The notes beneath the pieces are model-generated. The model made no database searches, was not told the origin of the DNA, and saw nothing but the letters and a program-made list of their open reading frames with translations. Positions 2,428 through 8,546 of a stretch of DNA of 9,047 nucleotides are shown piece by piece; the first letter of the stretch is position 1; each line of letters starts with the position of its first letter. Source of the DNA: JAUXIQ01 sp030620925 [NCBI: Nitrospinota bacterium] (lineage in GTDB: Bacteria; JAUXIQ01); the NCBI GenBank assembly GCA_030620925.1, contig JAUXIQ010000055.1, positions 1-9,047 on the forward strand, written 5' to 3'. A program made the position numbers and the translations under genes.

Positions 2428-3996
2428 TCAATGCACCCGCCGGCCCTGGCCGCCCCAGTATTTTTCCCTGAGCTGTGCCTTGAGGATTTTCCCCGAACCA
2501 CTCTTGGGGAGCTGGTCGTCGGGGTGGAAGTCCACGGAGCGTGGACATTTATAGTGCGTTATCTGCTCCCGACAGTAATCTATTATCTCCTGCTCGGTGG
2601 CCGAATGTCCTTCTCTGAGCACCACCACAGCCTTGATGGCCTCACCCCACTTCTCATCGGGAACGCCGACCACCGCCGCCTCCAGTATGGCGGGGTGTTT
2701 GTAGAGGGCGTTCTCCACCTCGGTGGAGAAAACGTTCTCGCCGCCGGTGATTATCATGTCCTTCTTGCGGTCCACGATGAACAGGAAGCCTTCTTCGTCC
2801 ACGGTGGCCATGTCTCCCGTGTGAAACCACTCCCCGCGCAGCACGGCGGCGGTCTCCTCCGGCTTGCGCCAGTAGCCCTTCATTATGTTAGGTCCCCGGC
2901 AGATAATCTCCCCCACTTCGTCAGGCTTGACATTTTCCCCTTCGTCGTTCACCACCCGTACCTCCACTCCCGCTACCTCCCTGCCGCAGGAGGCCAGCCT
3001 TCGCACACGGTGCTCCGGACCCTCCAGGACGTGCTCGGAAGGGGGAAGCGAGGTGAGCAGCGGCGCCGTCTCGGTGAGGCCGTAGGACTGGCGGAAGAGG
3101 GGGCCTATCTTCTCCATGGCCTTCCTCATCAGCTCCACGGGCATGGGCGAACCGCCGTAGTTTATCAACCGCAGACTGCTCAGGTCGTGTTTGTCGAAAT
3201 CGGGATGGTTGATGAGGAAATTTATCATGGTGGGAATGAACAGGGTGACGGACACCTTTTCGTTCTCGATGATCTCCATGGCCGCCTTGGGGTCGAAGCT
3301 GGGCAAAAAAGTATGCTTGCCGCCCACCATGGTTATGGGGTGGCTCATGGGGCCGTCCGCCAGGTGGAACATGGGGCAGGCGTGCATGTAGACGTCGCCC
3401 TCCCTGTAGCCGAAGGTTATCAGGACGTGATAGGTGTTTGTAACGCAGTTCATGTGGGTGAGGATGACTCCTTTTGGCCCCCCGGTTGTGCCGCTGGTGT
3501 AGAACAGGCCCGCCGGGTCCTCCCTTTCCACGGAGACTTCCCCGTCAAAAGGGCCGGCGTCGGCCAGCGCATCCTCGTAGTCTATCATACCCTCCGGCGT
3601 CCCGTCTTCATCGGCGTAAATAAAACTGTTAACCGTCTTCACGTCGGCCCTGATGCTCTCCAGGATGGGCAGCATGTGCCTGTCCACCGCCAGCAGTGAG
3701 CTCTCCGAATCGTTCAGTATGTAAGTGAGCTCGCCTTCACTAAGGCGCGTGTTGATGGGAACGATAAGTGCCCCCAGCCTCGCCGTGGCGTAATAAAACT
3801 CGAGGTAGCGGTGGCAGTTCATCATGAGCACCGCCACCCGATCCCCCTTGGATGCGCCCTTTTCATGCAGACAACCGGCCAGTCTCAGGACTCTTTCCTG
3901 GAACTCTTCGTAGTTGTATTTATGTCTCCCGCAGGATACAGCCGCAGCCTCCGGGCTCAACTTAGCCGACCGTCTGAGGATATCGTATACGTTCAT
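2428..3996 (-). CDS. AMP-forming acyl-CoA synthetase (fatty-acid--CoA ligase family)
   Basis: The 522-aa product belongs to the ANL adenylate-forming superfamily. It activates a carboxylic acid with ATP to an acyl-adenylate and then to acyl-CoA, in the cytoplasm or at the membrane. All core motifs are present: the phosphate-binding loop YTSGTTGGPKG (166-176), the YGLTET motif (305-310), TGD (393-395), the hinge DRKKDMI (409-415), GGENVFSTEVE (418-428) and the C-terminal PKSGSGKILK (497-506), whose K503 is the expected adenylation lysine. Length is normal for medium/long-chain or aromatic acyl-CoA ligases; the sequence does not fix the acid. The start ATG 3996 has GGGAGA 4 nt upstream, inside the 12-nt gap after the SDR gene, so the two are surely co-transcribed. 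It probably supplies the CoA thioester used by the dehydrogenase and SDRs upstream. Confidence 0.95.
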   Translation of the reverse strand: MNVYDILRRSAKLSPEAAAVSCGRHKYNYEEFQERVLRLAGCLHEKGASKGDRVAVLMMNCHRYLEFYYATARLGALIVPINTRLSEGELTYILNDSESSLLAVDRHMLPILESIRADVKTVNSFIYADEDGTPEGMIDYEDALADAGPFDGEVSVEREDPAGLFYTSGTTGGPKGVILTHMNCVTNTYHVLITFGYREGDVYMHACPMFHLADGPMSHPITMVGGKHTFLPSFDPKAAMEIIENEKVSVTLFIPTMINFLINHPDFDKHDLSSLRLINYGGSPMPVELMRKAMEKIGPLFRQSYGLTETAPLLTSLPPSEHVLEGPEHRVRRLASCGREVAGVEVRVVNDEGENVKPDEVGEIICRGPNIMKGYWRKPEETAAVLRGEWFHTGDMATVDEEGFLFIVDRKKDMIITGGENVFSTEVENALYKHPAILEAAVVGVPDEKWGEAIKAVVVLREGHSATEQEIIDYCREQITHYKCPRSVDFHPDDQLPKSGSGKILKAQLREKYWGGQGRRVH

Positions 3997-4008: not shown

Positions 4009-4761
4009 TCAATGCATATACAGGCCGCCGCTCACGCAGACCGTCTCACCCACCACGAAGCTGCTCTGGTCCGACACTAGGTAGAGGATGGTTTTTGCTA
4101 TATCGTCCGGCTCCCCGACCCTGCCCAAGGGCGTCTGATCGCTTATCTTGTCCAGCTCTTCCTTGGGGTAGATGCGCGCCAGAAACTCATTGTAGATGAG
4201 GCCGGGGGCGATGGCGTTCACCCTTATGCCTTGCCTGGAGACCTCGTTGGCCAGCGATTTGGTGAAAGCCACGATGCCCGCCTTGGCGGCGCAGTAATGC
4301 GATTCGGTGGCTCCGCCCAGCCAGCCCGCCACCGAGGACAGGTTGACGATGGCGCCGCTCTTCTGGGCGATCATGGTAGGGAGCACGGCGCGGCAGCAGT
4401 AGAAGGTGCCCCTCAGGTTTATGTTTATCACCAGGTCCCAGGTCTCATCATCCATCTCGTGCACCGGCGCCAACTTGTTGATCCCCGCGTTGTTGACCAA
4501 TATGTCTATGCGCCCGAGCTGATCCAGCGTCCGGGCCGCCAGGTCTTCCACCTGCTTCTTATCCCGCACGTCGCAGGGGATAGCCAGTGCCTTGCGGCCG
4601 GTTTCCTTCTGTATCTCCCCGGCAAGCGCCTGCGCGCGCTGTTCGTGGGTATCGCTGACGACGACATCGGCGCCTTCCCTGGCCAACATGCTTACCGTGG
4701 CTCTCCCTATTCCCGCACCCGCAGAAGCGGTAACTATGGCGACTTTCCCCTCGAGTATCAT
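4009..4761 (-). CDS. SDR family oxidoreductase, FabG-type
   Basis: A full-length classical short-chain dehydrogenase/reductase of 250 aa, probably oxidising a hydroxyacyl-CoA or alcohol with NAD(P). The nucleotide-binding turn is TASAGAGIG (11-19), one residue longer than TGxxxGIG and with Ala for the first Gly, a variant seen in some SDRs. The acidic D37 region (VVVSDTHEQR) suggests NAD preference. Further motifs are NNAG (90-93), the catalytic S142/S143 in NLSSVAG, Y156 and K160 (YCAAK), and the C-terminal PLGRVGEPDDIAKTILYLVS and SGG. GAGGAG lies 9 nt before ATG 4761. It is 12 nt from the acyl-CoA synthetase gene and 37 nt after the MaoC-fold gene. Likely role: 3-hydroxyacyl-CoA dehydrogenase or a substrate-specific alcohol dehydrogenase in the same catabolic route; the substrate is inferred from context only. 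Confidence 0.92.
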   Translation of the reverse strand: MILEGKVAIVTASAGAGIGRATVSMLAREGADVVVSDTHEQRAQALAGEIQKETGRKALAIPCDVRDKKQVEDLAARTLDQLGRIDILVNNAGINKLAPVHEMDDETWDLVININLRGTFYCCRAVLPTMIAQKSGAIVNLSSVAGWLGGATESHYCAAKAGIVAFTKSLANEVSRQGIRVNAIAPGLIYNEFLARIYPKEELDKISDQTPLGRVGEPDDIAKTILYLVSDQSSFVVGETVCVSGGLYMH

Positions 4762-4798: not shown

Positions 4799-5245
4799 TT
4801 ATTTGCGCTTTAACATATAAGTCATGATCATATCCATCACTCTCTCTTCTTTCTGATTGATGGTGGTATGCTTGGCTTTTATGATTCCCCGGTCGGGCTT
4901 GCTGGTTTCCCTGGCCTCAATTATCTCGACCTCGGAGTGGAGTGTATCACCGTGGCGGACCGGAGCGTAGGCCCGCATCTGATCCACCCCCAGGAAGGCC
5001 AGCACGGTGCCCTCGAAGAAGCCCATCCGTATCCACATGCCCACGGTAAAGATGTAGGTCAGTGGGCCGGGGACCACCCTGGTGCCGAAAATGGTGTTCT
5101 TCTTTGCGAATTCCTCGTTCACAAAAAGCGGGTTGAAGATGCCCGCAAGGCCGCAGAAAGTCATGACGTCGGACTCGGTGACCGTCCTGCCACCGGTTAC
5201 GAACGTATCGCCCACCTTGAAGTCTTCGTACAATTTGGCGCTCAT
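4799..5245 (-). CDS. MaoC-like hot-dog protein lacking the usual hydratase dyad
   Basis: The 148-aa product matches the single hot-dog MaoC/(R)-specific enoyl-CoA hydratase family in length and layout: an N-terminal YEDFKVGDTF strand, TVTESDVMTFCGLAG (21-35), NPLFVNEEFAKK (38-49), FGTRVVPGPL (53-62) and a final strand region from about 100, GDTLHSEVEI. In active R-hydratases the segment reads roughly GDxNPxH, with Asp and His as the catalytic pair. Here it reads GIFNPLF, so the Asp position is I36 and the His position is F41. The codons (ATC and TTT) confirm both changes. The protein may therefore be an acyl-CoA binding or thioesterase-like variant, or use other residues. GGGAGGT lies 5 nt before ATG 5245, and the gene begins 13 nt after the acyl-CoA dehydrogenase stop, so it is in the same operon. 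Confidence 0.88.
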   Translation of the reverse strand: MSAKLYEDFKVGDTFVTGGRTVTESDVMTFCGLAGIFNPLFVNEEFAKKNTIFGTRVVPGPLTYIFTVGMWIRMGFFEGTVLAFLGVDQMRAYAPVRHGDTLHSEVEIIEARETSKPDRGIIKAKHTTINQKEERVMDMIMTYMLKRK

Positions 5246-5258
5246 AGACTACCTCCCA

Positions 5259-6401
5259 TCACAGGCCCAGGCCGCGGGCGATGACGCTGCGCTGTATCTG
5301 CGACGTCCCTCCGCCCACCATGGCCTGCTTGCCTTCCCGAAAATAACGTTCCATATCATACTCAGGCATCTGGGCGTAACCGCCCAGAATCTGCATCCCG
5401 TTGGTGGCCGTCTTAAACAACGTCTCCGAAGCGAACAGTTTGGCCATGGAGGCCTCCCTGGCGCAGGGTTTACCCTGACTGACCATCCACGCCGCCCGAT
5501 AGACTATCAGACGGACGGCATCCACCTCCAGCGCCATGTCCGCCAGCATGTGCTTTATTACCTGGAACTGGGCTATGGGCTTTCCGAACTGGACCCTGTC
5601 CTTGGCATAATCCAGAGCGTCGTTGAGAGCCGTCTGTGCGTTGCCCAGGTTCATCCCCGCCACGGCCAGGCGCTCTATCTCCAAGTGGCCGGAGAGATAC
5701 TCCCAGCCGTGATTGAGCTCGCCTAACAGGTTGCTCCTGGGGACCCGCACGTCGGTGAAAAAAATCTCGTTGGTGCCTGTCGCCCGGCGGGCCAGCGTGT
5801 TCAGTCGGCGCAGCTCCAGACCCGGCGTGTTGTTAGGCACCAGGATGAGGCTTATGCCCTTGTGCTTGGGGGCGGTTTTATCGGTGCGAGCAGCCAGGCA
5901 GATGATGTTGTTTTCAGCGTGGGCGGCGGTAGAGAAGACCTTTTGCCCGTTTATTACGAAATCGTCACCGTCCTGTTCCGCCGAGATTTTGAGTGACGCG
6001 GCGTCGGAGCCTGCATCGGGCTCGGTGATGGAGATGGAAAAACGTATCTCTCCCTTGCATACCTTGGGCAGATAATTCTGCTTCTGCTCCTCCGTACCGT
6101 AGCGCACCACGTTGGTGGCGGTAAACGTGGTCAGCGCCACCGGGGTGCCGGTGTCTACCCCATACTTACCAAGACCCTCGTTGAGGATGGTGTACATGAT
6201 TGCGTCAGACCCCATCCCGCCGTACTCCTCAGGCAGCATGATGCCTATCCAGCCCAGTTCAGCCAGCCTCTTGTACAGTTCGTAAGGGTAGCGCCGTTCC
6301 TGATCGCATTGACGGTAGTATTCCCTGCCGAACTCCTTGTCCACGAAATCCTGGACCGTCTTGTGCCATAAGGCCTGTTCCTCGGTGAATTCGAAATACA
6401 T
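5259..6401 (-). CDS. Acyl-CoA dehydrogenase (FAD flavoprotein)
   Basis: The 380-aa product is a full-length acyl-CoA dehydrogenase, which introduces an alpha,beta double bond into an acyl-CoA and passes electrons from FAD to an acceptor such as ETF. Seen in order: N-terminal helical domain (FTEEQALWHKTVQDFV), FSISITEPDAGSDAAS (121-136), the beta-domain INGQKVFSTAA (150-160), DRVQFGKPIAQFQ (268-280), MQILGGYAQMPEYDMERYFRE (336-356) and GGGTSQIQR (363-371). The position that holds the base in MCAD/SCAD (YEGTxxIQR) is G364, but E243 in LEIERLAVAGMNLG aligns with the catalytic Glu of isovaleryl-CoA and long-chain acyl-CoA dehydrogenases. It is therefore likely active, of the IVD/LCAD layout. AGGAGG lies 8 nt before ATG 6401. 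It follows the Fe-S protein gene after 119 bp and precedes the MaoC-like gene by 13 nt. Confidence 0.96.
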   Translation of the reverse strand: MYFEFTEEQALWHKTVQDFVDKEFGREYYRQCDQERRYPYELYKRLAELGWIGIMLPEEYGGMGSDAIMYTILNEGLGKYGVDTGTPVALTTFTATNVVRYGTEEQKQNYLPKVCKGEIRFSISITEPDAGSDAASLKISAEQDGDDFVINGQKVFSTAAHAENNIICLAARTDKTAPKHKGISLILVPNNTPGLELRRLNTLARRATGTNEIFFTDVRVPRSNLLGELNHGWEYLSGHLEIERLAVAGMNLGNAQTALNDALDYAKDRVQFGKPIAQFQVIKHMLADMALEVDAVRLIVYRAAWMVSQGKPCAREASMAKLFASETLFKTATNGMQILGGYAQMPEYDMERYFREGKQAMVGGGTSQIQRSVIARGLGL

Positions 6402-6520: not shown

Positions 6521-7600
6521 TCATGTGTATAGACCCTGCTCTCGCTCCCTGGCCCGTGCGCCCCACATGTCGTCGAAGGTCTCCGGTATCTCTATCCCCT
6601 CCAATGGTTTCAGCTGGAGGCAATCGACCGGGCAGTGCCTCACGCAGAGGCCGCATCCGATGCAGCGCTCTTCATCTATGGAGGCTACGTTATCCACCAT
6701 GCTGACGGCTTTGACCTGGCACACCTCGACGCATACCTCGCAACCCGTGCAGTCGGCGGCGTCGATTTCGGCCGCAAACCCCGATGAGGCCATGACCCGT
6801 GGTCGCTGAAGCTGGGAGAACCGGCGCATCAAGTGGCAGCAGCATTCACAGCAGTTGCAGATGAAGGTGATGGCTTCCTTCACGTTGTTGGTGGTATGCA
6901 CCAGGCCGTCTTCCTCCGTCTGGTCCAGGACCTTCAGCGCCTCCTCTTTGCTAACCTCGCGTCCCGCACCGCTGCCAACGAAGAATTTGCCCAGCGAGCC
7001 GAAGGCGATGCAGTTGTCCGTGGGCTTATCGCACTTTTTCAGGGCTATCCTGCATGCGCAGGGCAGGAGGGCGATGAAATTCGCCTCTTTTATGATTTCC
7101 GAGACCTTCTGGTAGGGGAGCACTTGAACGTTGGTTGGGATGGTCTGCTCCACCGGCAGAACCTTGAGAAAGGATGTTCTGGGGGCGTGCATATCGTTCC
7201 CCAATGACTTGTCGTAATATCGCTCCCAAAGTTCGCCTAATTTCTGCAGCTCCGGATGCTCCCTGGCCCTGTCGCCCATCTTGTGGAAAGGCATCTGTAT
7301 GTTCACGCCGAAAAACACTATATGAGACCACTTTCTGCCCTTCCTGGTATCGACGAAAAAGACCAGCCCCTTCTCCCGCATGGCGTCCAGCATCTGCTCC
7401 ACAGCCTCCGGCTCCATGCCCGCCCGCTCGGCGATGATTTCCACGCTCTCAGGCACGTAAGTGAGATTGCAGGCCAGGCGAGCCTCCTCCACGGTGTAGC
7501 GCATCTTAAGAATCTCGAAGAGTTCTTCCTCCCTGGGAGCGCCCAGGTCAAACTTGTCAAGTTCCTCAGCCAGCCGCTCGTAAATTTCTTCCTCTTTCAT
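6521..7600 (-). CDS. Winged-helix-like multi-cluster 4Fe-4S protein
   Basis: The 359-aa product is a cytoplasmic iron-sulfur protein, probably for electron transfer. Residues about 35-83 look like a winged-helix (LTYVPESVEIIAERAGMEPE, MLDAMREKGLVFF). Then come a cysteine set CACR-x6-C-x6-C (C181, C183, C190, C197), a very dense patch CNCCECCC (248-255), and a C-terminal bacterial ferredoxin domain with two 4Fe-4S motifs: C284/C287/C290/C294 and C313/C316/C319/C323. There is no signal peptide or membrane span. The ATG at 7600 is chosen because GGAGGAGGG lies just upstream; a longer frame reaching 7684 would overlap the SDR gene. It lies 40 bp after the HSD17B4-type SDR and before the acyl-CoA dehydrogenase, which suggests it accepts electrons from an acyl-CoA oxidation, but no partner is proven. 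I recognise the ferredoxin domain; the N-terminal family has no name I can give. Confidence 0.9.
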   Translation of the reverse strand: MKEEEIYERLAEELDKFDLGAPREEELFEILKMRYTVEEARLACNLTYVPESVEIIAERAGMEPEAVEQMLDAMREKGLVFFVDTRKGRKWSHIVFFGVNIQMPFHKMGDRAREHPELQKLGELWERYYDKSLGNDMHAPRTSFLKVLPVEQTIPTNVQVLPYQKVSEIIKEANFIALLPCACRIALKKCDKPTDNCIAFGSLGKFFVGSGAGREVSKEEALKVLDQTEEDGLVHTTNNVKEAITFICNCCECCCHLMRRFSQLQRPRVMASSGFAAEIDAADCTGCEVCVEVCQVKAVSMVDNVASIDEERCIGCGLCVRHCPVDCLQLKPLEGIEIPETFDDMWGARAREREQGLYT

Positions 7601-7640: not shown

Positions 7641-8546
7641 CTAAAAATATATGGTTTCGGGCATGAGGTTTTTGCCCGCTCCAAGATTGGTCTTAAAAAG
7701 CTCGTCTATACTCTCCCCGCTCAGGGGAGCGTCATAATAGAAGTAGCGGTCGGGGCCCGGTTGAGCCCAGAGGGAGATTTTGCCTCCCCCTATTCCTATC
7801 ACCTGCCCGGATACTTCCGACGCCCGGTCGCCGGCCAGAAATAGGACCACAGGCGCTATTTCCGAGGGGTCGCTGTATCCGGTGATGACGTTCTTGACCA
7901 GCTTTTTCCCCGCTTTCTTCCTGTCCGCAACCACGTCTTCTGCGAACTGGGCCATGCGGGTGGCGGCCAGTGGTGCGATGGCGTTGCAGGTAACGTTGTA
8001 GCGGACCATGTCTCTGGCCACCGCGTAGGTGAACCCCACGATGCCCGCTTTCGCCGCGCAGTAGTTGGCGCCTCCTATCTCCCCGCGGGCGGCATCGGAG
8101 GCGACGTTGATTATCCGCCCGCTCTTCTGCTGCCGCATGTGGAGGACTGCGAACTTGGTGCAGGCGAAGTGCCCCTTGAGGTGTACGCCGATAACCGTAT
8201 CCCAATCATCCTCGCTCATGTTGAAGATCATGCGGCCCCTGAAATTTCCGGCGTTGTTCACCAGTATGTCTATCTTCCCGTAATTGTCCAGGGCCGCTCC
8301 GATTATTCTTTCCGCACCCTCCATGGCGGCTACCGAATCGTAGCTGGCCACCGCCTCTCCTCCCGCACTCTTTATCTCTTCCACCACTTCATCCGCCGGC
8401 TCCCGGGATGCGCCCTCTCCTGAAACTATGCCCCCCAGATCGTTCACCACAACCCTGGCGCCCGCCCCGGCCAGCAGCAAAGCGACTGCCCTTCCGATCC
8501 CCCTGCCGGCGCCGGTCACCACGGCGACCTTACCTTTAAGATTCAT
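7641..8546 (-). CDS. HSD17B4/MFE-2-type SDR, (3R)-hydroxyacyl-CoA dehydrogenase-like
   Basis: The 301-aa SDR closely follows the dehydrogenase domain of peroxisomal multifunctional enzyme 2 (HSD17B4), which oxidises (3R)-hydroxyacyl-CoA with NAD+. Shared landmarks are TGAGRGIG (11-18), VVVNDLGG with D36 for NAD, the extended loop leading to ADEVVEEIKSAGGEAVASYDSV (51-72), NNAG (97-100), MSEDDWDTVIGVHLKGHF (110-127), the catalytic S150, Y162 and K166 (YCAAK), and NAIAPLAATRM. After the usual SDR end there is a tail of about 48 residues (254-301, KISLWAQPGPDRYFYY onward), where HSD17B4 also has extra sequence. The SD is modest (AAGGGG about 9 nt upstream of ATG 8546). It is the first gene of the minus-strand train and is preceded by a good promoter. 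Pairing with a MaoC-fold protein resembles the R-specific arm of beta-oxidation. Confidence 0.92.
   Translation of the reverse strand: MNLKGKVAVVTGAGRGIGRAVALLLAGAGARVVVNDLGGIVSGEGASREPADEVVEEIKSAGGEAVASYDSVAAMEGAERIIGAALDNYGKIDILVNNAGNFRGRMIFNMSEDDWDTVIGVHLKGHFACTKFAVLHMRQQKSGRIINVASDAARGEIGGANYCAAKAGIVGFTYAVARDMVRYNVTCNAIAPLAATRMAQFAEDVVADRKKAGKKLVKNVITGYSDPSEIAPVVLFLAGDRASEVSGQVIGIGGGKISLWAQPGPDRYFYYDAPLSGESIDELFKTNLGAGKNLMPETIYF

Follow-up and report, generated by a model that had tools for sequence, protein, structure and literature searches.

The gene described here lies in a stretch of 9,047 nucleotides (the window) that covers positions 1 to 9,047 of contig JAUXIQ010000055.1 from the Nitrospinota bacterium JAUXIQ01 sp030620925 (assembly GCA_030620925.1). 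A run of minus-strand genes codes, in order, for a short-chain dehydrogenase, the iron-sulfur protein considered below, an acyl-CoA dehydrogenase, a MaoC-like enoyl-CoA hydratase, a second short-chain dehydrogenase and an acyl-CoA ligase (Table 1), and this operon suggests a redox step in the activation and beta-oxidation-like breakdown of an acid. The ATG assigned as the start of the iron-sulfur protein gene lies just after a Shine-Dalgarno-like run, GGGGAGGAGGG, and the relatives in the alignment start at about the same position; an alternative TTG at 7684 would create an overlap with the upstream gene. A first-pass annotation, made from the DNA letters alone, had seen no ETF genes in the window, and scans of eight window proteins agree with it. 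The adjoining acyl-CoA dehydrogenase reads GGGT at the place of what we take to be the classical catalytic-Glu motif, YEGT; the Glu of its LEIER motif may replace the catalytic residue, presumably as in isovaleryl-CoA dehydrogenase, and a branched or bulky substrate is possible. Two further ORFs lie in the window, one of 358 codons (508-1584) with weak matches only, to Ap4A phosphorylase- and GalT-like families, and one of 177 codons (1635-2168) with no recognised family at a meaningful score.

Table 1. Genes of the minus-strand run and features of the iron-sulfur protein, in window coordinates.
Feature	Position	Strand	Basis
Stand-alone IsrA-N-terminal-like iron-sulfur protein gene	6521..7600	-	ATG start at 7600, stop at 6521, 359 aa
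Short-chain dehydrogenase, upstream neighbour	7641..8546	-	Pfam adh_short
Acyl-CoA dehydrogenase, downstream neighbour	5259..6401	-	Pfam Acyl-CoA_dh_1/M/N
MaoC-like enoyl-CoA hydratase	4799..5245	-	Pfam MaoC_dehydratas
Short-chain dehydrogenase (FabG-like)	4009..4761	-	Pfam and NCBIfam scans
Acyl-CoA ligase	2428..3996	-	Pfam AMP-binding; NCBIfam PRK06187 over cut-off
Winged-helix domain (MarR/ArsR/Zalpha-like fold), residues 1-105	7286..7600	-	AlphaFold2 model, VIA, TrmB matches
Ten-cysteine alpha/beta domain, residues 139-275	6776..7186	-	Unmatched in the libraries searched; homologous to the IsrA-type N-terminal cysteine site
Cysteine set 1, C181-x-C183-x6-C190-x6-C197	7010..7060	-	Sequence and alignments A1, A3
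Cysteine set 2, C248-N-C250-C251-E-C253-C254-C255	6836..6859	-	Sequence and alignments A1, A3
2x[4Fe-4S] ferredoxin domain, residues 277-330	6611..6772	-	Pfam Fer4_21/Fer4 over cut-offs; Foldseek

An AlphaFold2 model of the protein was computed from a 78-row alignment (pLDDT 93.7, pTM 0.90). The winged-helix-like N-terminus proposed by the annotation is backed by a fold search of this model, in which VIA returned winged-helix chains with a best Z of 10.0 and rows spanning residues 1-105, and by TrmB matches (E <= 0.01) in 20/78 family members. Both ferredoxin-type 4Fe-4S motifs that had been proposed are likewise confirmed by sequence and Pfam: two CxxCxxCxxxC motifs (C284/287/290/294 and C313/316/319/323) lie within a ferredoxin fold that Foldseek matched, over some 60 columns, to 5c4i_B and 9bt4_G at an rmsd of 1.1-1.2 and an E of about 0.01. 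In this C-terminal domain the protein resembles the bacterial 2x[4Fe-4S] ferredoxins (Fer4_21, RnfB- and PorD-like; rmsd about 1.1), but about 300 of its 359 residues fall outside it. Whole members of the family match ferredoxin families and, weakly, winged-helix families in Pfam and NCBIfam.

The middle domain matched no Pfam or NCBIfam family. When residues 139-282 were modelled separately (pLDDT 81.8) and the model was compared with the PDB, the best Foldseek hit had an E of 1.4 and a probability of at most 0.08 among the 50 matches listed, and VIA gave two chains at Z >= 2, one entry being listed at Z 2.1, with nothing convincing. At a model pLDDT of 82, such an unmatched fold search does not show that the predicted fold is new. 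Pentatricopeptide repeats, the only matches given by a PDB sequence search with the middle-domain profile, aligned through a short helix and were judged to be chance, and literature searches for the cysteine pattern listed no relevant paper. Two loci carry a variant that keeps the cysteine domain and the ferredoxin part; the N-terminus of one (L015) gave no alignment to the winged helix, and the other (L016) aligned only from the cysteine domain onward.

Relatives were found at E <= 1e-20 in 34 places in 9 of 59 genomes, the source genome included, and one genome (G024) alone carries 13 family copies. From these places, alignment A1 was built with 28 of the 34, leaving out four places without a locus, one partial gene (L003) and one with an internal stop (L030). 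A scan of the wider collection with a profile made from A2, a closer subset than A1, confirmed at least 425 relatives, the best 80 loci of which were kept; these 80 show 29-41% identity, come mostly from MAGs and include Thermodesulfobacteriota, Bacillota, Chloroflexota, Spirochaetota, Bacteroidota, Asgard lineages, Bathyarchaeota and others. Alignment A3 holds the window protein and 77 of these best 80 of at least 425 relatives, with two partial genes (L091, L101) and one broken frame (L113) left out. In all, 112 sources were analysed, comprising the loci of the best 80 of at least 425 relatives, 31 further stretches and the window, and these hold 126 family genes. Gene calls were made by a simple script, which missed the family gene in L038, L044, L048, L105 and L147; it was added by hand in the first four.

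The annotation had described two unusual cysteine sets and had made its proposal depend on their conservation; both are conserved in A1 and in A3. The first set, C181-A-C183-R...C190...C197, had been written as CxCR-x6-C-x6-C; it is present as CxC-x6-C-x6-C, and the gap after the arginine is 5, a slip of one residue. The second, the CNCCECCC patch, does hold six cysteines in eight residues, from C248 to C255. In A1, C181, C183, C190, C248, C250, C251, C255 and all eight ferredoxin cysteines are present in 28/28 rows, and C197, C253 and C254 in 27/28 each. In A3, where conservation is partly by construction because the search patterns covered motif 2 and the last ferredoxin motif, C181, C183, C190, C248, C250, C255 and the eight ferredoxin cysteines occur in 78/78 rows, followed by C197 (77), C251 (77), C254 (73) and C253 (71); motif 1 was not part of the selection patterns. 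Common to every row of both alignments are therefore C181, C183, C190, C248, C250 and C255 of the two unusual sets.

The source genome itself encodes five members: the window copy, a 40% identical paralogue, a partial gene at a contig end, a 29% identical copy and a divergent protein of 284 residues that stands outside A1 and A3. The divergent copy lacks C190, C251, C253 and C254 and keeps C181, C183, C197, C248, C250 and C255. At its locus (L121, 4893-7813), CNCEMPLC replaces CNCCECCC, a gene of the HpaB family, which we take to be the family of 4-hydroxybutyryl-CoA dehydratase, precedes it, and a small ORF with a CxxCxxxC pattern follows. A paralogue at another locus (L120, 42-5999) is followed by four consecutive acyl-CoA dehydrogenase genes. 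At a third (L119, 1-3135), three similar-looking tandem ORFs of 316-353 residues follow the truncated paralogue, the outermost being cut by the contig end; an RdhA-like identity considered for them was dropped, as Pfam found no family for the one scanned.

A described counterpart of the cysteine-rich region exists in IsrA, a putative isoprene reductase of 901 residues from Acetobacterium wieringae ISORED-2 that is placed among the clade 9 oxidoreductases (PMC10134865). According to that paper, the isoprene-induced isr operon codes for IsrA, two HypA proteins, one HypB and a 350-residue '4Fe-4S ferredoxin', and is devoid of hypCDEF and of [NiFe] hydrogenase genes; the isr ferredoxin aligns with the first ~270 residues of IsrA, a stretch in which no domain was predicted (PMC10134865). 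For the proposed site V of IsrA, built of six cysteines that include Cys180-x-Cys182 and Cys254-x-Cys256, the authors drew a parallel with the A-cluster of acetyl-CoA synthase or with a P-type cluster, and they suggested it as a nickel site (PMC10134865). The same study found HypA near 73% and HypB near 56% of 988 IsrA homologues, but no HypA/HypB association for the isr operon ferredoxin (PMC10134865).

IsrA-type proteins were represented in our sequence comparison by one sequence, a 925-aa oxidoreductase with PF14691 and PF07992 from a Subdoligranulum variabile plasmid (L174), whose gene stands in the order HypB, oxidoreductase, HypA, DUF5692. A two-sequence BLASTP matched the window protein to it with an E of 3e-22 over residues 145-326, from the middle domain as far as the first ferredoxin motif, and a further alignment also takes in the winged helix; in a tblastn search of the plasmid collection with the window protein, the same locus was found at E 4e-12. 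C181/C183, C197, C248/C250 and C255 all have counterparts in the plasmid protein, which reads CNC-x4-C, in contrast to the CNCCECCC of the window protein. The six site-V cysteines would thus be the equivalents of the two CxC motifs, C197 and C255, the last two assignments being ones that we infer. In reverse, a tblastn search with the N-terminus of the plasmid protein (E <= 1e-10) gave 112 loci, a count that takes in its own locus and overlapping ones, whereas its flavin part matched, over the same loci and at the same threshold, only itself. Like IsrA as PMC10134865 describes it, then, the window protein combines a winged-helix-like region with a pair of CxC motifs at almost equal residue numbers, further cysteines and a ferredoxin-type motif, and part of the stand-alone family has HypA/HypB neighbours; unlike IsrA, in which PF14691 and an FAD/NAD(P)H module follow, the 359-residue window protein has neither in Pfam and stops after a full 2x[4Fe-4S] ferredoxin domain. 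Judged from these alignments, it is almost certainly a stand-alone member of a family that also forms the N-termini of IsrA-type enzymes. The isr ferredoxin VUZ27135.1 (350 aa), compared here through its description in PMC10134865, falls in the length class of the window protein, and its gene lies between HypB and a HypA, the same order of HypB, family gene and HypA that is seen at L123; it differs in that one [4Fe-4S] cluster is predicted and no HypA/HypB association is reported for it, whereas stand-alone members here do have one. Beyond PMC10134865, searches of mostly open-access literature on isoprene reductase and orphan hypA/hypB genes listed nothing that describes the stand-alone family.

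This stand-alone family of anaerobic iron-sulfur proteins is widespread and uncharacterised. By analogy, the four-cysteine set followed by CxC in the window protein would resemble what we take to be the A-cluster ligand pattern of acetyl-CoA synthase, also a four-cysteine set followed by CxC; the PDB searches listed no sequence or fold match between the middle domain and that enzyme, and the likeness is one of analogy only.

The winged-helix fold and its TrmB matches would also suit a metal- or redox-sensing transcription factor, in which the winged helix would bind DNA and the cysteine sites would respond to nickel or to redox state. Across the family the wing has a positive mean charge, 45 of the 126 family genes stand without a co-directional gene inside 150 bp, and TetR_N (6) and MarR (3) proteins occur among the 140 co-directional neighbours scanned, all in keeping with such a role. 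Against it, the same N-terminal order recurs inside the 925-aa oxidoreductase, the recognition helix carries a net charge of -3 in the window protein and -1 on average in the family, with +2 reached by only 9% of members, the window copy lies within a run of genes that share its direction, and the gene upstream points the same way in 76/114 family cases versus 655/943 in the background, with no clear divergent excess. Because the domain order is common to an oxidoreductase and the mean charge of the recognition helix is negative, it is unlikely, on grounds that are suggestive only, that the winged helix is a plain DNA-binding domain, and the redox-sensing module offered as an option in the annotation is weakened for the same reasons; a transcription factor of this kind appears quite improbable. 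The winged helix may instead be a docking or assembly domain.

Genes for HypA and/or HypB neighbour family genes in 10 of the 112 sources, eight among the loci of the best 80 of at least 425 relatives (L038, L039, L048, L050, L064, L087, L092, L102) and two among the 31 further stretches (L123, L136). Distances from the family gene are 0-361 bp in nine loci and 756 bp in one, and a test of random placement within each locus, counting one Hyp gene per locus, gave a combined p of 3e-13. The arrangements vary: HypA-HypB-gene in L038, L048 and L136, HypB-HypA-gene in L050, HypB-gene-HypA in L123, gene-HypA in L087 and L092, gene-HypB in L102, and a convergent pair in L064; in L039, a hypA-hypB pair precedes a membrane-protein gene and another family gene. 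In L038 and L048 the script had called wrong-strand ORFs over hypA/hypB, and the genes were found by tblastn. The L039 membrane protein had been considered a nickel transporter, an identity that was dropped when Pfam assigned it to DsbD_2, and it is not counted as nickel evidence; in L092, an HpaB-family enzyme follows HypA. A quick tree, in which 34/105 inner branches are weak, needs 10 changes to account for the 10 linked rows, so that linked members are spread across the family; three of the five rows nearest the window protein are linked. The other 102 of the 112 sources showed no HypA/HypB in the stretches searched, some of which are short. Since no IsrA flavin part was found in the family loci at E <= 1e-10, a full IsrA within the DNA searched does not account for the HypA/HypB neighbours. 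In the source genome, which is 89% complete, contig C243 carries a HypB-HypA pair (L166, 7514-8538), and no HypD was found; on the short contigs of this assembly, none of the five family copies shares a contig with the pair.

Co-occurrence across whole genomes was assessed in a set of 231 genomes, chosen because the sets for the phyla of G024 and G039 had only 3 and 2 genomes, with the middle domain scored at E <= 1e-20 and HypB over its curated cut-off. The middle domain was present in 25 of the 231, and HypB was found in 21 of these 25 versus 57 of the 206 family-negative genomes (p 6e-8). HypD, which marks the maturation of [NiFe] hydrogenases, was also enriched (18/25 versus 74/206, p 6e-4), and an anaerobic lifestyle may therefore account for part of the HypB co-occurrence; stratification by HypD serves as a partial control only for this possible confounding. 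Among HypD-less genomes, HypB occurs in 5 of 7 family-positive versus 7 of 132 negative ones (p 4e-5); among HypD-positive genomes, the contrast of 16/18 versus 50/74 is borderline (p 0.06). In 4 of the 25 (G024, G034, G060, G089), no more than 1 kb separates the middle domain from HypB, with about 0.07 domain-HypB pairs within 2 kb expected by chance; G024 and G060 belong to one family and are not independent, and no HypD was found in G060 or G089 at the threshold used. Four of the 25 family-positive genomes (G061, G099, G186 and G221, 86-93% complete) had no HypB found. Taken with the gene neighbourhoods, the link between HypA/HypB and the family is very probably real.

These associations bear on whether the protein is a plain multi-cluster electron carrier, with ordinary [4Fe-4S] clusters shuttling electrons between flavoenzymes and the ferredoxin pool, in which case the HypA/HypB neighbours would be incidental or would serve another nickel enzyme. 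The 140 co-directional neighbours scanned with Pfam are a diverse set with FAD oxidoreductases, old-yellow-enzyme-like proteins, acyl-CoA ligases and others, and several flavoenzyme types do occur among them (DAO 7, FAD_binding_2 6, Oxidored_FMN 5, Acyl-CoA_dh_1 5); the 13 copies in one genome and the positions of own-genome copies beside four acyl-CoA dehydrogenases and beside an HpaB-family enzyme likewise suit a general carrier. Such a carrier leaves unexplained the placement of HypA/HypB, the co-occurrence with HypB and the two CxC motifs held in common with the IsrA site, and we regard it as unlikely, if a reading to be taken seriously.

The annotation had offered as its other option a narrower role, that of a dedicated acceptor taking electrons from the adjoining acyl-CoA dehydrogenase in place of ETF, and this is largely refuted. 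Within 2 kb of the family gene, tblastn found an acyl-CoA dehydrogenase at none of the loci of the best 80 of at least 425 relatives, and anywhere in the locus at 5/80, some of these loci being short. Over all 112 sources, such a dehydrogenase lies no more than 1 kb from 4 of the 126 family genes: the window copy and the own-genome L120, in which the dehydrogenase adjoins, L123, in which it is one gene off with HypB between, and L144, in which it is divergent. Two of the four are thus in the source genome, which has 31 acyl-CoA-dehydrogenase places and also, next to a different acyl-CoA dehydrogenase on contig C387, an ETF pair; the ETF domain PF01012 is not among the Pfam matches of the window protein. 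A dedicated acceptor consequently seems very unlikely, and an electron-moving role for the operon remains reasonable.

The interpretation that we propose, and to which we give about an even chance, is that the window protein is a ferredoxin-fed redox module with an extra site, probably matured by HypA/HypB, that serves a catabolic operon. The ferredoxin clusters would pass electrons into or out of an additional iron-sulfur site formed by the two CxC motifs with C197 and C255 (and here also C190, C251, C253 and C254), and HypA/HypB would mature this extra site. Such maturation would make nickel probable there; weighing what the sequences offer, nickel in the extra cysteine site might equally be present or not. 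In the window operon, the protein would most likely carry out or feed a redox step whose substrate is a CoA ester or a related unsaturated compound, and direct catalysis by the protein itself, as far as its sequence allows a judgement, is possible though doubtful. A more far-reaching version, which we consider improbable, is that of a 'mini-IsrA': the family, found in bacteria as well as in MAGs of Asgard lineages and Bathyarchaeota with as many as 13 copies in a genome, would be a large, undescribed group of Ni-Fe-S reductases that lack flavin and are fed by ferredoxin. Each copy would be tuned to a different unsaturated or CoA-linked substrate belonging to its operon, and a HypA/HypB pair would load nickel into the common CxC/CxC site, also in organisms with no HypD found.

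To our knowledge, few classes of nickel enzyme are known. If a ferredoxin-fed module with a HypA/HypB-matured site is indeed what these genes encode, the stand-alone family would supply small proteins for testing the nickel question, built around a cysteine domain for which Pfam and NCBIfam, as searched, hold no model; it would provide a client for hypA/hypB genes in HypD-less genomes, and would point to uncharted redox reactions by which fatty acids and related acids are degraded anaerobically. The published hint that we found of such a nickel site comes from one putative isoprene reductase (PMC10134865).

Two of the neighbourhoods are of interest in their own right. The plasmid that carries the 925-aa oxidoreductase was typed as mobilizable, and its cluster (L174, 3788-8711) matches the IsrA-homologue neighbourhood given in PMC10134865. 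In G024, an acyl-CoA dehydrogenase, HypB, a family gene and a HypA-like gene follow one another in a single co-directional run (L123, 6024-9389), which joins the dehydrogenase link with the nickel-chaperone link at one locus.
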